Below are positions 224 to 6,560 of a stretch of 21,974 nt of DNA, piece after piece. Positions within the stretch are counted from its first letter, which is position 1, and each line of letters begins with the position of its first letter. The position numbers and the translations under genes are program-made. Under the pieces are notes generated by a model. The model was not told the origin of the DNA, ran no database searches, and worked only from the letters and a program-made list of their open reading frames with translations. The stretch comes from a bacterium (GTDB lineage: Bacteria; SM23-81; DAOVCL01): NCBI GenBank assembly GCA_029932675.1, contig JAOZPP010000054.1, forward strand, positions 1 through 21,974, read 5' to 3'.

Positions 224-3200
224 ATGAGAACATTTGCCCAAGAGATCAAGCTTAAAATAGATAACGAGATAATCGATGGACGCTACCAAATCCTCCAGAA
301 GTTAGGTGAAGGGGGAATGGGAGAGGTATACAAGGTCCGCGATTTGGATAGCGGAAGGGAGATCGTGCTGAAGATGCTCTTGCCGGAGATCACTGAAGGC
401 GAGGATTTTCTGCATTTTAAGAGGGAGTTCTACAATATGACCAAGGTGAGGCATCCCAATATCGTTGAGGTTTATGACTATGGGATTACACCTGAGGAGA
501 GGGCATACTTCACGATGGAGTATTTAGAGGGGAAGAACATCGTCGATTTTTTCAAATTCGAGGAAAATTTTAAATACCTCACCTCAACAGTCGCCCAGAT
601 TTGCAGCGCCTTGAGTTTTATCCATTCACGCGGACTTATCCATTATGACCTTAAACCTTCCAACATCATGATCCTCCAAAAGGGCAAGGCTAAGCTGCTT
701 GACTTCGGATTGGCCGAACCCATTGACCTCTCAGTACCCAAAACCATCAGAGGGACCTTGAGTTATATGGCCCCCGAGATGGCCAAAGGGGTCAAAGTTG
801 ATCAGAGAGTGGATCTCTATTCCCTGGGGGTTCTCCTTTATGAAGTTGTCACTGGAAAGGTCCCTTTCCAAGGGAAGAACCCAGTCTCCGTTATCAAAAA
901 ACACCTGGAGAAAAAGCCTCACCTCCCCCAGAGCAAAAAACTTCCCCAAAACCTCCGGGGGATAATCCTGAAACTAATGGAAAAGGACCCAGAGAGGAGG
1001 TTCCAATCTGCCAATGAGGTAATTGATAGCTTAGACTCAAGTGTGAGGTGCAAGCTCTTTAAGCAAGGCCAGCTCTTTCCACCAAAATTTATTGGTAGAA
1101 AAGAGGAGGTGAAAACCCTCCTCAGGTTGTTGGATGCGCCCAAATTTATCCTCGTTAGTGGCGAGTCCGGTATCGGTAAGTCCAGGTTAATGCAAGAGTT
1201 TAAATTCGAGGTGCAGCTAAGAGGTGGGCTGTTTATAACTGGGAAATGTCTTTCGGACGGAAGAATCCCTTATAACCCCTTCGCGGAAATCTTACGCCAA
1301 CTCGTTTGGAGCGTAGAATCAAATGACAAAAGGGTAATTGCAAAATATGGAAGTGAACTGGTTAAACTTGTTCCTAAACTGAAGGGGAAAGATTATTTAA
1401 AAGAGAACCTTCAATCCCCACCCCTAAGATCTGACCAGGAAAAGTTGAGAATGTTCAATGCGGTAATCGAATTTATCGATAAGAGTAGTCACTTGCTCAC
1501 CAGATCGGCAGATAAGCCAATGGTCCTCTTGATAGAAGACCTCCAATGGGTAGACCCCCAATCCTTAGAGCTATTGGGTTATCTCATCAGATCAAAGGCG
1601 CTCAAGAACGTATCGATCTGTGGGACCTTTCGAGACGAGGAGGTCACATCCAGTTTAAGGTTGAAACAGGCTGGTTTTGGGAGCAGCCCTCACCCCCTGT
1701 TGACATTTATAGACCAACTGAAGCAGGGAAATCGCCTCATCCAAATAGGTTTGAAAAGACTTAATTTTGAGGCTACTGCCTCCCTTATTGGTTCTATGTT
1801 GGGTTCATCACCCATTGACCACCGATTGGCACTGGACATATTCGAGCTTACCCAGGGAAACCCTCTCTTTACCAGTGAAATGGTAAGGGCATTAGCCGAG
1901 GAAGGCGGTTTACACCATCAAGATGGGGGTTGGAGGGTGGACTATCGGAAACTTAAGGGGTTAAAAATTCCGAAAAAAGTAAAAGGGCTCTTGGGGGAGA
2001 GATTGGGTAAGTTGAGCCGGGAAGCTCTGCGGATCCTAAGCATAGCAGCAGTAATTGGGAAGGAGTTTAGATTAGATGTGCTTAAAAAAGTAGGGGAATG
2101 TGATGATGAGGACCTTTTCTCTATGATCGAGGAAGGGATTGGGGCAGGAGTAATAAAGGAGAGCCGAATTAGAGGGAGGTTAAAATATGATTTCACTCAT
2201 CCCTTGATAAGGGAGGTGCTCTATAGGGAGATCAGGCCTTTGGTGAAGAGAACCCTGCACCAGAGGGCGGCCAGGGCATTGGAGAGGACCTATGAAGGAA
2301 GGATAGATGAAGTGGTCGATCAGCTTGCCTATCATTTTTCGCGGGGAATAGACCAAGTTAAAGCGATTGCATACCTGGAAAAATCTGCCCATCAGGCCAA
2401 AAATCAATATTCCAATGCGAAGTCCATTGCTAACTATAAACTTGCCTTGAAGTTAATGGAAAAGAAAGGTCTGAACAGGGATAAAATAAGGATCTTGGAG
2501 GCCCTCGGCGATGTCTATGATCTGGTTGGTGAATATCAAAAAGCAATAAGGACTTATCGAAAAGCCCTTTCCCTATTGGCTTCAACCGGGCCCTCTGCAG
2601 GAAAGCTGGCTACCCTGTACAGAAAGATAGGAAATGTCCTGGAGAAAAGAGGAAAACACGAAGAAGCATTAAAATCCTTTCAAGCCGGGCTCCATCAGCT
2701 TGGGGAAACGGAAAATCCTATCGAAAAAGCGAAATTATATGATAAAATCGGTTGGACCCTTTACAGAAAAGGAGAGTATGAATCTGCAATCGAGTACTGT
2801 AAGAGGGGTCTAAGGATAGCGGAAAGGGAAAATGCAGCAGGTGAAATACCTCAGGTCTATAACATCCTGGGGGTTATCCATTGGAACAAGGGAGATTTCC
2901 AAACTGCCAAAATATATTATCAAAGAAGCCTGGAACTGTTAGAAAGGATTGGCGATACCTATGGAGTAGCCAAATTATATAATAACTTAGGCCTTCTCTA
3001 CAAAGATGAGGATAATTGGAAGGAAGCCCTAAAGTGCTACCAGAAGAGCTTAGATATAAAGAAGAGAGTCGGTGATATAAAGGGTTTAGCCTACGCTTAC
3101 AGTAATTTAAGCATAATTTACAAAGATAAGGGCCAATGGGATAGAGCGGAAAACTACTACAAAAGCAGCTTAAAAATATTGGAAAAGATAGGTGAACTCT

Positions 3201-5440
3201 CCGCTGTTGCTACCTTGCTGAACAACCTGGGATTAATCCACCGGAGGAGGGGAGATTGGGATAAAGCAATGGATTATCTGAAAAGGAGCTTGAAACTTAA
3301 CAGGGAATTGAAAAACAGCCAAGGGATAGCCCTATGCTATGAGAACATTGGGGAACTCTATATCTCCCAAGGAAATTGGGGAAAAGCATTGGCTTACCTT
3401 AGGAAGGGTTTAACAACCTTCCGTAGTCTGGGGGTTAAGTCCGAACAGGCCACGGTCTATAGATTATTGGGGGAGGTTTATCTAAGAAAAGCTATGGCCC
3501 AAAAGGCCTTAGAATCATGCAACAGATCTTTAGAGATCTCTAAGAAACTGCGAAATAGGCTCGAAGAGGGAAACGCCCATAGAGTCTTGGGGAGCCTCTA
3601 TGGTTTTATTGGGGAAAATTCCAAAGCGAAGGGATCCTTTGCGAATAGCATAATGATATTGAAAAAGCTGGGGGCAGATTACGATCTGGGGAGAACTTTC
3701 CTTGATCTTGGATGCTGGATGCACCAAAAGGGAATTGAGGGGATGAACATCGGTTCAGTGATAAAAGGCCCTTTGCAGTTTTTGACCGAAGCAAAGGAGA
3801 TCTTCAAAAAATTGGGGGCAAAGAAAGAGATGAAAAGAGCAGACGAATTCATTCACAAGGAGGAGAAGAGAAGGCTGGGTCTGCCTGAAGGGGAGGATCG
3901 GCTTTTGGCCCTCTATCGGATCAGCCAAATCATCAATTCCATCCGAGATATTGATGAACTCCTTACCAATCTGATGGATCTGGTGAACGTTGAGCTAAAA
4001 GCCCAGAGGGGTTTAATATTTCTCCTCGATGAGGGCACTAACCGGTTGGACCTGAGGGTGGCCCGCAATGTGGATAGGGAGACCGTTGAAGATGCCACGA
4101 AAATAAGTAGAAAAGTCGTTCGTGAGGTGTTAAGGGGGGGGCAACCGATAATCTCATCCGATGCCGCAAATGATTCCAGATTCAAAGACAACAAAAGCGT
4201 TATCCTCAATGGAATCAAATCTTTGCTGTGCGTTCCCTTGAAAATAAAGGAGAAGGTCATCGGAACCATCTATGTAGATTCATGTATCTCCTCCAATATC
4301 TTCTCCGCACAGGACCTTAAATTTTTAACCAGCCTCGCCAATCAGGCAGCCATAGCCATCGAGAATGCGAGACTCCATCATAGGCTCCGGAAGGAGTGCG
4401 AATATTTAAGGGAAGAGGTCAGGACCAAATACCACTATGAGAACATTATTGGCAATAGCGTTAAGATGCAAAAGGTCTATGAAACGCTGGAGAAAGTAAT
4501 AAGAAGTTCAGCCACTGTTCTCATCTATGGAGAGAGCGGCACAGGCAAGGAGCTCATTGCCCGCGCAATACACTACAATGGGGAAAGAAGAACAAAGAAA
4601 TTTGTGGCTCAGAATTGCAGCGCCCTCCCCGAGCAGCTATTGGAAAGTGAACTTTTCGGCCATGTAAAAGGTGCCTTCACTGGAGCAGTCAAGGATAAAA
4701 AGGGGTTGTTCGAAATAGCGGATGGAGGGACTTTCTTTCTGGATGAGATAAGTGAGATGAGCCCAAATCTCCAGGCCAAACTACTCCGGGTTTTAGAAGA
4801 TGGTCAGATAAGAAAGGTAGGAGGGGTGGAGGCTCGAAGGGTGGATGTGAGAATCATTGCCGCCACCAACAAAGACTTGGGCCAACAGGTCAAAGAGGAG
4901 AAATTCAGGGAGGATCTATACTACAGGCTGAATGTAGTGAAAATAGACCTCCCCCCCTTAAGGGAAAGGAAGGAGGATATCCCTCTGTTGGCCAACCATT
5001 TCCTAAAGAAATACTCCCTCCAAAATTCAAAGGAGATCACAGGGTTCACTGAGGAGGCTATGGAACTTTTAACCCTATATCACTGGCCAGGGAATGTAAG
5101 GGAGTTAGAGAATGAAGTGGAAAGGGCAGTTGTTTTAACAACCAATCAAAGCATCATTTCCGCTGAAGTCCTCTCCCAAAGGCTAAAGAAAAGTTTGAAA
5201 CCAACGAAGATCCCCTTTAAGGGGGAATCCCTGAAAAGGATGATGGACGATGTGGAACGTAGGTTGCTTAAAGAGGCTTTGGAGAAGAATAACTGGAATC
5301 GCACTAAGACCGCCAAGGCCTTAGGACTAAGCAGACAAGCCCTAATTAAGAAGCTATCCAAATATAGCCTCAAATATCCCCTCCCCCATCCCCAACTTTA
5401 CAATCCGAGGAGAGGGCGCCAAACCTCCCTCGATCGCTAA
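224..5440 (+). CDS. Ser/Thr kinase - STAND ATPase - TPR - GAF - sigma-54 activator fusion regulator
   Basis: This is a giant cytoplasmic one-protein signalling chain of 1738 residues. Domains in order: Hanks-type kinase (about 20-270; G-loop GEGGMG 28-33, Lys50, HYDLKPSN with catalytic Asp142, DFG 160-162, APE 183-185); STAND/MalT-like ATPase (about 288-690; Walker A GESGIGKS 313-320, Walker [12 protein letters not shown] from 434); roughly ten TPRs (about 755-1205); GAF domain (about 1225-1385); sigma-54 AAA+ domain (about 1405-1640; Walker A GESGTGKE 1436-1443, GAFTGA 1483-1488, Walker B FFLDE 1504-1508); Fis-type HTH (about 1680-1713). Each catalytic motif is intact, so both phosphotransfer and sigma-54 activation are plausible. 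PknK-like kinase-ATPase proteins and NtrC-like activators are known separately and as fusions. The ATG at 224 has only a weak ribosome site but begins just before the kinase fold. Likely targets are the palindromes and -24/-12 promoter immediately downstream (inference). Confidence 0.93.
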
Positions 5441-5477: not shown

Positions 5478-5497
5478 GTGTAAATTAAAGTTTACAA
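5478..5497. promoter_or_regulatory. upstream activator site 1 (distal palindrome)
   Basis: The 20-bp site GTGTAAATTAAAGTTTACAA contains TGTAAA-N6-TTTACA. It shares 16 of 20 bases with the second site at 5570, with centres 92 bp apart. Its centre is about 240 bp before the predicted sigma-54 transcription start. Repeated dyads at this distance are typical of enhancer sites for Fis-type HTH dimers, and the gene just upstream encodes such a protein. Assigning it as the binder is inference. Confidence 0.7.
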
Positions 5498-5569: not shown

Positions 5570-5589
5570 GTGTAAACAATAGTTTACAC
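5570..5589. promoter_or_regulatory. upstream activator site 2 (proximal, perfect palindrome)
   Basis: GTGTAAAC-AATA-GTTTACAC is a perfect 8-bp inverted repeat with a 4-bp spacer. It has the same TGTAAA-N6-TTTACA core and the same 20-bp frame as the site at 5478. Its centre lies about 150 bp upstream of the expected transcription start of the -24/-12 promoter at 5704, within the usual enhancer range for sigma-54 activators. No second T-rich tract follows, so it is not a normal terminator. Confidence 0.75.
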
Positions 5590-5659
5590 ATCCCACCCGC
5601 CGACTGCCAGAGGTCTTCTGGCCTCAAAAATCTTTGCATTCATAACTCATTATTTTAAA

Positions 5660-5695
5660 GTCATTTAAGTCCATCTTAAATGGCTTTTCTTTTTT
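5660..5695 (+). terminator. intrinsic terminator of the kinase-regulator gene
   Basis: A perfect 8-bp stem, CATTTAAG / CTTAAATG with loop TCCAT, is extended outward by a T-G and a G-C pair and followed by TTTTCTTTTTT. It ends only nine bases before the -24/-12 promoter, so it should insulate the small-peptide unit from read-through. A second, weaker hairpin, GCCAGA / TCTGGC, lies at 5606-5622 without a good T tract. Confidence 0.8.
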
Positions 5696-5703
5696 CCAAA
5701 CCC

Positions 5704-5719
5704 TGGCATATCAATTGCT
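5704..5719 (+). promoter_or_regulatory. sigma-54 (-24/-12) promoter for the small secreted peptide
   Basis: TGGCAT-ATCAA-TTGCT matches the consensus TGGCAC-N5-TTGCW at all but one defined position, with GG (5705-5706) and GC (5717-5718) exactly ten bases apart. The expected start of transcription is near 5730, giving a leader of about 40 nt before the ATG at 5772. Two palindromic activator-type sites lie 150 and 240 bp upstream, and a sigma-54 activator gene is immediately adjacent. Confidence 0.85.
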
Positions 5720-5771: not shown

Positions 5772-6014
5772 ATGTGTTTCAAACCCTCTTCGTGGAATGG
5801 GAAAAGGGGAAAGTTGAGCTTAATGCTGATTCTACTCCTCATCTTTAATCTCCTTCTTCTCACCGGCCAGATCTATGCTGGTGGCGATGGAAAATTACCG
5901 GAGGATTTAGATGCCTCCAATAGTTCGAGCGGCAACATGGTCACCTCAGCTTACCACCTTCTGGTGGATAACGTCTCGGACTTCTTTCTCTACCTTACTA
6001 TGGAGCTATTATAG
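5772..6014 (+). CDS. small secreted peptide precursor (80 aa), sigma-54 controlled
   Basis: I do not recognise a family. The start is well set: AGGAGG at 5760-5765 stands six bases before the ATG. Residues 1-36 form a classic Sec signal sequence: a basic n-region (K4, K11, R12, K14), a Leu/Ile-rich core at 15-30, and an IYA site before Gly37. The predicted mature part is 44 residues, acidic, without cysteine. Its first half is Gly/Asp/Ser/Asn-rich and flexible, and its last 24 residues are hydrophobic and could form a helix (ending FFLYLTMELL). The gene directly follows the -24/-12 promoter at 5704 and precedes a small HTH gene. Export is well supported. A role as signal, toxin-like peptide or envelope-stress product is open, and no maturation enzyme is adjacent. 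Just after it, a six-codon ORF with a good ribosome site (6025-6045) may only be chance. Confidence 0.75.
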   Translation: MCFKPSSWNGKRGKLSLMLILLLIFNLLLLTGQIYAGGDGKLPEDLDASNSSSGNMVTSAYHLLVDNVSDFFLYLTMELL

Positions 6015-6146
6015 TAAGGGAAGGATGGCAGAGTTGGCTTTCTAAAGGCCCGAAAAATTAAAAGCGGTGTCTCCCTGGTGGGACCATTATTTATAGGTTT
6101 CACTGAGGGGGGACTCAATTACACGATGAACCTGATAAGGATTAAA

Positions 6147-6314
6147 ATGGGAGATATAGAAAAGGAGGAGATCCTTCGGGCCCTCCACAGGAACAAGTGG
6201 GACAAGGCAAAGACTGCCGAGGAATTGGGGCTGACCATTTCCGAATTGCTAAATGAGATGAGAAAACTGAATATTGAACTTCCTTCGAAACCTGATTGGA
6301 TGGTTTTTGAGTGA
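6147..6314 (+). CDS. stand-alone Fis-type HTH mini-protein (55 aa)
   Basis: Nearly the whole protein is one Fis/HTH_8-like DNA-binding domain: KEEILRALHRNKWDKAKTAE followed by ELGL and the recognition-helix segment. It aligns without gaps to residues 1682-1715 of the large regulator (shared pattern L..N.W...KTA..LGL...L). It has no AAA+ module and no membrane segment. The ATG at 6147 is preferred because AAGGA (6137-6141) lies five bases upstream; an ATG at 6126 or a GTG at 6078 would add 7 or 23 residues. It lies 132 bp after the small-peptide gene with no terminator between, so it is probably on the same sigma-54 transcript. A competitor or partner of the big regulator at the palindromes is a reasonable inference, but it could also bind elsewhere. 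Confidence 0.75.
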   Translation: MGDIEKEEILRALHRNKWDKAKTAEELGLTISELLNEMRKLNIELPSKPDWMVFE

Positions 6315-6340: not shown

Positions 6341-6461
6341 GGACGTGGTCCAGTGGGTGAGTAAACCTCCAACTCTTCCCTTAGCTTTGTGTGGAGGCCG
6401 AAAGCCCACTGGATTAAAAAAATGGGGAGAATGGCCTGACTCCTCCAGGGCCTTTTCTCCC
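6341..6461 (+). ncRNA. structured RNA element in the 3' part of the peptide-HTH transcript
   Basis: Two compact folds lie back to back. The first has an outer stem CCAGTGGG (6350-6357) / CCCACTGG (6405-6412), extended by T-A and G-T pairs. It encloses CCTCCA (6366-6371) / TGGAGG (6392-6397), with unpaired joining segments TGAGTAAA and CCGAAAG. The second is a long hairpin, GGGAGAA (6425) / TTCTCCC (6455) plus GGCCTG / CAGG-GCC, with no T tract. No known riboswitch motif was recognised. It could be a 3' UTR structure, a processed small RNA or a leader for 6650, although a terminator follows at 6517. Confidence 0.45.
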
Positions 6462-6516: not shown

Positions 6517-6560
6517 AGCCCCGCAGGAGAAAATGGCTTGACGGGGCTTTACTTTTTCTT
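6517..6560 (+). terminator. intrinsic terminator closing the peptide-HTH unit
   Basis: A perfect seven-pair stem, AGCCCCG (6517-6523) / CGGGGCT (6542-6548), has an 18-nt loop and is followed by TTACTTTTTCTTT. It would end a transcript of about 830 nt beginning at the -24/-12 promoter. Confidence 0.7.

Follow-up and report, generated by a model that had tools for sequence, protein, structure and literature searches.

A stand-alone HTH_8 mini-protein with an altered recognition helix, encoded in the likely target transcript of a giant sigma-54 activator

Behind the gene for a giant sigma-54 activator, in a stretch of bacterial DNA of 21,974 nucleotides (the window), lies a short open reading frame whose product is a DNA-binding domain of the activator's own kind. 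What could such an isolated helix-turn-helix (HTH) do? An earlier note on this DNA proposed that a Fis-like mini-protein, resembling the regulator's DNA-binding domain and perhaps derived from it, is produced from the regulator's target transcript, occupies the same palindromes and acts there as a feedback repressor or pioneer factor. Judged from its sequence, the mini-protein has kept the fold of the activator's DNA-binding domain and lost the residues that read DNA. We consider below what this combination implies.

The mini-protein is an isolated activator-type HTH, of the Fis/NtrC type, without an activator attached. The translation of the forward-strand frame (MGDIEKEEILRALHRNKWDKAKTAEELGLTISELLNEMRKLNIELPSKPDWMVFE) matches Pfam HTH_8 (PF02954) at E=1e-8, scoring 35.2 bits where 22 is the cut-off; the match starts at residue 3 and covers profile positions 4-41 of 42. 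The AAA+ sigma-54 interaction domain is absent by Pfam, which places the protein outside the bEBPs. AAGGA can be read directly 5' of the ATG; the frame stays open upstream as far as a GTG at 6078, where a good ribosome site is absent. Scored against the coding genes of the window, its codon usage reaches 0.221 (coding, 0.136 +/- 0.077; non-coding stop-free stretches, 0.0 +/- 0.128). The Pfam match, the codon usage and the three-helix model described below bear out the earlier note's isolated HTH and establish the reading frame. Among the 25 HTH_8 frames of the 3.03-Mb genome, it is the only short one that is neither an activator nor a broken activator. Two further candidates, short HTH_8 frames on contigs C62 and C98, proved to be sigma-54 activators with broken frames; these interruptions suggest decay or assembly errors among the paralogs.

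Table 1. Features of the locus, in window coordinates
Feature	Position	Strand	Evidence
1738-aa activator: Ser/Thr kinase, AAA_16 ATPase, TPRs, GAF, sigma-54 AAA+, C-terminal HTH_8 (residues about 1675-1714)	224..5440	+	Pfam
Palindrome GTGTAAATTAAAGTTTACAA, candidate activator site, about 225 bp 5' of promoter	5478..5497	.	
Palindrome GTGTAAACAATAGTTTACAC, candidate activator site, about 134 bp 5' of promoter	5570..5589	.	
Terminator-like hairpin and T run, ends activator gene	5657..5687	+	terminator scan
Sigma-54 promoter TGGCATATCAATTGCT, perfect -24/-12 match	5704..5719	+	
80-aa ORF, strong ribosome site GGAGG, signal-peptide-like N-terminus (by eye)	5772..6014	+	
Stand-alone HTH_8 mini-protein, 55 aa	6147..6314	+	ORF, Pfam, codon score, predicted fold
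67-nt covarying structured RNA element, one copy	6349..6414	+	genus-wide comparison
Likely intrinsic terminator AGCCCCG...CGGGGCT then T-rich, closes transcript	about 6517..6560	+	read directly, hairpin prediction

How would the mini-protein come to be made? Because a perfect sigma-54 promoter stands between the palindromes and the open reading frames, it is placed for production from the regulator's likely target transcript, and this part of the earlier proposal stands. Perfect sigma-54 promoters number 27 in the genome, nine of them just behind an HTH_8 gene. The first frame in the transcript is that of the 80-residue product, whose codon score is not distinguishable from non-coding and for which four genomes yielded no relatives. 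The likely terminator that closes the transcript has a loop beyond the limit of the scan that gave the hairpin behind the activator gene. Operon position and promoter sequence are established; expression we infer, with the upstream kinase-TPR-GAF activator most likely switching on the mini-protein's sigma-54 transcript.

In this genome and its congener, a perfect or one-off sigma-54 promoter lies about 180-290 bp past the stop codon of most large TPR-GAF activators; the module on C76 is an exception, with its promoter about 470 bp past the activator stop. Such modules are found on contigs C9, C18, C30, C46, C76, C98, C108, C109 and C111 of this genome and on C20, C115 and C122 of the congener. 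On the evidence of these promoters, a self-contained module of an activator and then its own predicted sigma-54 target is the rule in this genus. The rule therefore supports the guess that the mini-protein is made from its activator's target transcript. A literature search on this activator architecture returned nothing relevant.

Other small products lie in these modules. A family of ~50-60-aa proteins (KKKKGVWQRILEVLEEEVRKGREEESRDPSDW) is encoded behind the sigma-54 promoters of C108, C111, C9, C46, C18 and C98 and behind the second promoter of C76; a repeat-rich leader precedes it, and in several cases a large exported-looking protein comes after. C76 also encodes two related small peptides ending in VxCHGWGFTC, about 350 and 760 bp past its first sigma-54 promoter, one of them with an export-signal-like start. 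They sit behind an activator whose upstream half-sites, described below, match those of the window, and are candidate secreted signal or antimicrobial peptides.

The transcript also carries a structured RNA element. Its two covarying helices have 94.7% of cells paired, and six pairs are changed on both sides (slid controls, 0-2); the conserved loop is CUCCCGUGGCUUUGUG. Searches with a covariance model gave six clear copies here and three in the congener, with one more weak match in each of these genomes, and none in two more distant ones; a comparison with Rfam gave no family match. The other copies in this genome lie at C30:31843-31909(-) and on C73, C71, C112 and C94, and those of the congener at C115:5203-5269(+) and on C140. 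Two copies stand behind a gene resembling ftsZ. On C30 and on the congener's C115 the element falls directly between a sigma-54 promoter and an intrinsic terminator, a position that would suit a small RNA of about 100-130 nt driven by sigma-54.

To what is the mini-protein related? A structure model whose input alignment contained 22 other HTH_8 domains has three helices (residues 2-15, 20-27 and 31-40; pLDDT 84.9). Among solved structures, the DNA-binding domains of NtrC4 and NtrC1 come closest, and E. coli Fis ranks lower, with 12% identity. Sequence searches point the same way: every significant relative found outside the window in 386 genomes is an HTH_8 domain, nearly always in a long activator-sized frame, and none, as far as can be judged, is a Fis protein. 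The nearest relatives are thus activator DNA-binding domains, and the refuting outcome that the earlier note had named, closest kinship to unrelated Fis proteins, did not appear. The best relative is 51% identical, and in those of the top relatives outside this genome that were read the recognition helix is still basic. No ortholog was found in the congener, in two genomes of the same phylum or in the 386 genomes. A viral origin was considered and set aside, with no viral relatives and only weak matches in PHROGs; plasmid homologs were likewise limited to weak matches (best E 5e-3).

The recognition helix of the mini-protein (TISELLNEMRKL; TISELLNEM) is another matter. Conservation of helices 1-2 is a little above average (z = +0.62, rank 39 of 49), whereas the turn and recognition helix are the most divergent of the set (z = -3.45, rank 1 of 49). 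The family's basic recognition helix with its DNA-contact residues is not found: the helix has a net charge of 0 and contains two Glu, and the domain has a charge of -1, both values the lowest or tied for lowest. This loss of basic recognition residues is established. In LuxO, alanine at G409, N410, I411, L418, V420, S423, I425, Y426, R427, K428 or L429 abolishes DNA binding (PMC11407668). The mini-protein has Asn-Glu at the positions of R427-K428, as mapped by residue number. At the K428 position 45 of the 49 other domains have K or R, four have L or M and none has an acid; the mini-protein has E. The intact scaffold and altered reading face argue both against simple decay and against binding to the regulator's sites.

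Our preferred reading, held tentatively, is that the mini-protein, induced by way of sigma-54, modulates activators by pairing with their DNA-binding domains and does not read the palindromes; both the pairing and the sign of the effect we infer. The helix 1-2 scaffold of HTH_8 supports dimerisation in NtrC and Fis proteins. When the activator fires, the mini-protein would accumulate from the sigma-54 transcript and could pair through this scaffold with the HTH_8 domain of its own activator or of one of two dozen related activators of the genome. Mixed pairs, one half of which is blind to DNA, would leave the palindromes less occupied and weaken the response, in bacteria the equivalent of feedback by Id proteins or microProteins; negative feedback is the simplest sign of the effect. 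The fully Id-like form of this idea, in which an activator induces a 55-residue DNA-blind copy of its domain that pairs with it and shuts or shapes the response, is possible but on balance unlikely. Three points temper the modulator reading. The residues before helix 1, which may be needed for NtrC-type pairing, are not homologous in the mini-protein; no ortholog was found in the congener or in the 386 genomes; and the specificity of pairing is a guess, because related HTH_8 domains are about 35-50% identical.

Might the frame instead be a fragment without a selected role, the recently copied HTH_8 end of an activator that drifts along in the transcript? As for its origin, the gapless alignment with the HTH at the regulator's C-terminus, seen by the earlier note, is real, though it amounts to 14 identities in 43 positions. 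The C109 activator of the same genome is the best match, with 20/42, and about ten other HTH_8 domains share 16-18 identities; in all, at least 12 domains in this genome and its three relatives match better than the mini-protein's own regulator does. A tree of 50 HTH_8 domains does not resolve the relationships (support about 12-41). Topology tests reject neither a clade of the mini-protein with its own regulator (AU p = 0.61) nor an origin near C109 (0.38), nor the best free tree (0.45). Because identity is low and the tree neither favours nor rejects it, specific derivation from the neighbouring regulator is not supported; the phylogenetic check that the earlier note proposed leaves the clade unsupported and yet unrejected.

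The occurrence of the mini-protein in one genome only, the absence of a clear ancestor from the tree and the broken-frame activators on C62 and C98 would all suit a drifting fragment. A good ribosome site and coding-like codon usage would not. Divergence is moreover concentrated in the recognition helix while helices 1-2 are fully conserved; decay would be expected to spread the changes evenly, and drift would not give this pattern by default. We consider such a fragment rather unlikely.

Alternatively, the mini-protein could dimerise and bind a different sequence elsewhere, regulating the sigma-54 response as a small protein of the Fis type. Its predicted fold is intact, recognition helices vary widely among the activators of the family, and Lys20, Lys22 and Arg39-Lys40 remain. 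But the domain is negatively charged, its neutral recognition helix carries two Glu, and it lacks the N-terminal dimer arm seen in stand-alone Fis-like proteins of 77-129 residues. A change of specificity is on these grounds improbable.

A third possibility is the earlier note's own, that the mini-protein sits on the activator's palindromes. It has the same fold as the activator domain and is encoded in the likely target operon behind these sites, which occur nowhere else in the genome. Are the sites bound by the activator, and by what residues? A general search for palindromes 5' of sigma-54 promoters was rejected as a guide: arms of 7-8 are common in shuffled sequences, so the single palindromes of most modules are not evidence. 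The only informative comparison among the palindrome searches is that of the GTTTAC/GTAAAC half-site: the 263-bp gap here contains three and the 467-bp gap on C76 six, whereas 14 other modules have 0-1 each and the background is 0.34 per kb. Both modules have activators with the recognition helix RQxLIK[KR] (TRQGLIKRIKRF on C76), which ties the half-site to that helix. Of the RQ.LIK residues common to both activators the mini-protein has none except a family-wide Leu, and it carries Asn-Glu where LuxO needs Arg427-Lys428 (PMC11407668). Since GTTTAC is enriched only at the two activators with this helix, the mini-protein probably does not read the regulator's palindromes. A repressor or pioneer at these sites is thus quite improbable, and tuning of the activator through protein contacts appears more likely than occupation of its DNA sites. 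Least probable of all is an accessory part for the exported 80-residue product or an adaptor for the activator's kinase/TPR part, with partners other than DNA-binding domains: co-transcription with ORF 5772-6014 is likely and the TPR and kinase parts provide docking surfaces, but the conserved face is the HTH_8 scaffold.

If the mini-protein is indeed a modulator that pairs with activator domains, bacteria would offer a case of what plants and animals already show, a regulator kept under control by a DNA-blind miniature of the same kind of DNA-binding domain. Damping of a giant kinase-TPR-GAF activator would then not require dephosphorylation. The locus also directs attention to sigma-54 modules of this lineage that are self-contained and have been little studied, each an activator and then its own sigma-54 target.

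How does the locus compare with known systems? The C30 module recalls the LuxO-Qrr circuit of vibrios, in which a sigma-54 activator is coupled with a sigma-54-driven small RNA; the input domains and the RNA are different. Fis, a separate global protein, assists LuxO (PMC11407668). Like the mini-protein, Fis is a free-standing HTH_8 protein, and about 43 residues of the two superpose at 0.6-0.8 A. Fis differs in its basic recognition helix and in about 50 more residues at the N-terminus, which serve dimerisation; E. coli Fis has 98 aa, and the arm and dimer helices that precede its HTH are absent from the 55-aa mini-protein. Stand-alone HTH_8 proteins as such are not new. Several traced from a survey of 41 genomes have 77-129 residues, longer N-termini and basic recognition helices, and their genes mostly adjoin housekeeping-type genes (for example dus-like), not activators. 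The mini-protein is unusual in bringing together a target-operon position, minimal size and a neutral recognition helix. With the C-terminal HTH_8 domains of NtrC4 (3E7L/4FTH) and NtrC1 (4L5E) the mini-protein shares the three-helix fold (0.7-1.0 A) and 30-35% identity; unlike them it is free-standing, its recognition helix is uncharged and the AAA+ domain is absent. Id proteins and plant microProteins are small single-domain relatives of regulators that lack DNA contacts and can poison dimers; their targets are eukaryotic bHLH, MYB and other factors, and in the literature searched on bacterial microProteins we found no HTH_8 case. The mini-protein resembles them in two respects: it is a single domain related to a regulator, and it lacks the residues that contact DNA.
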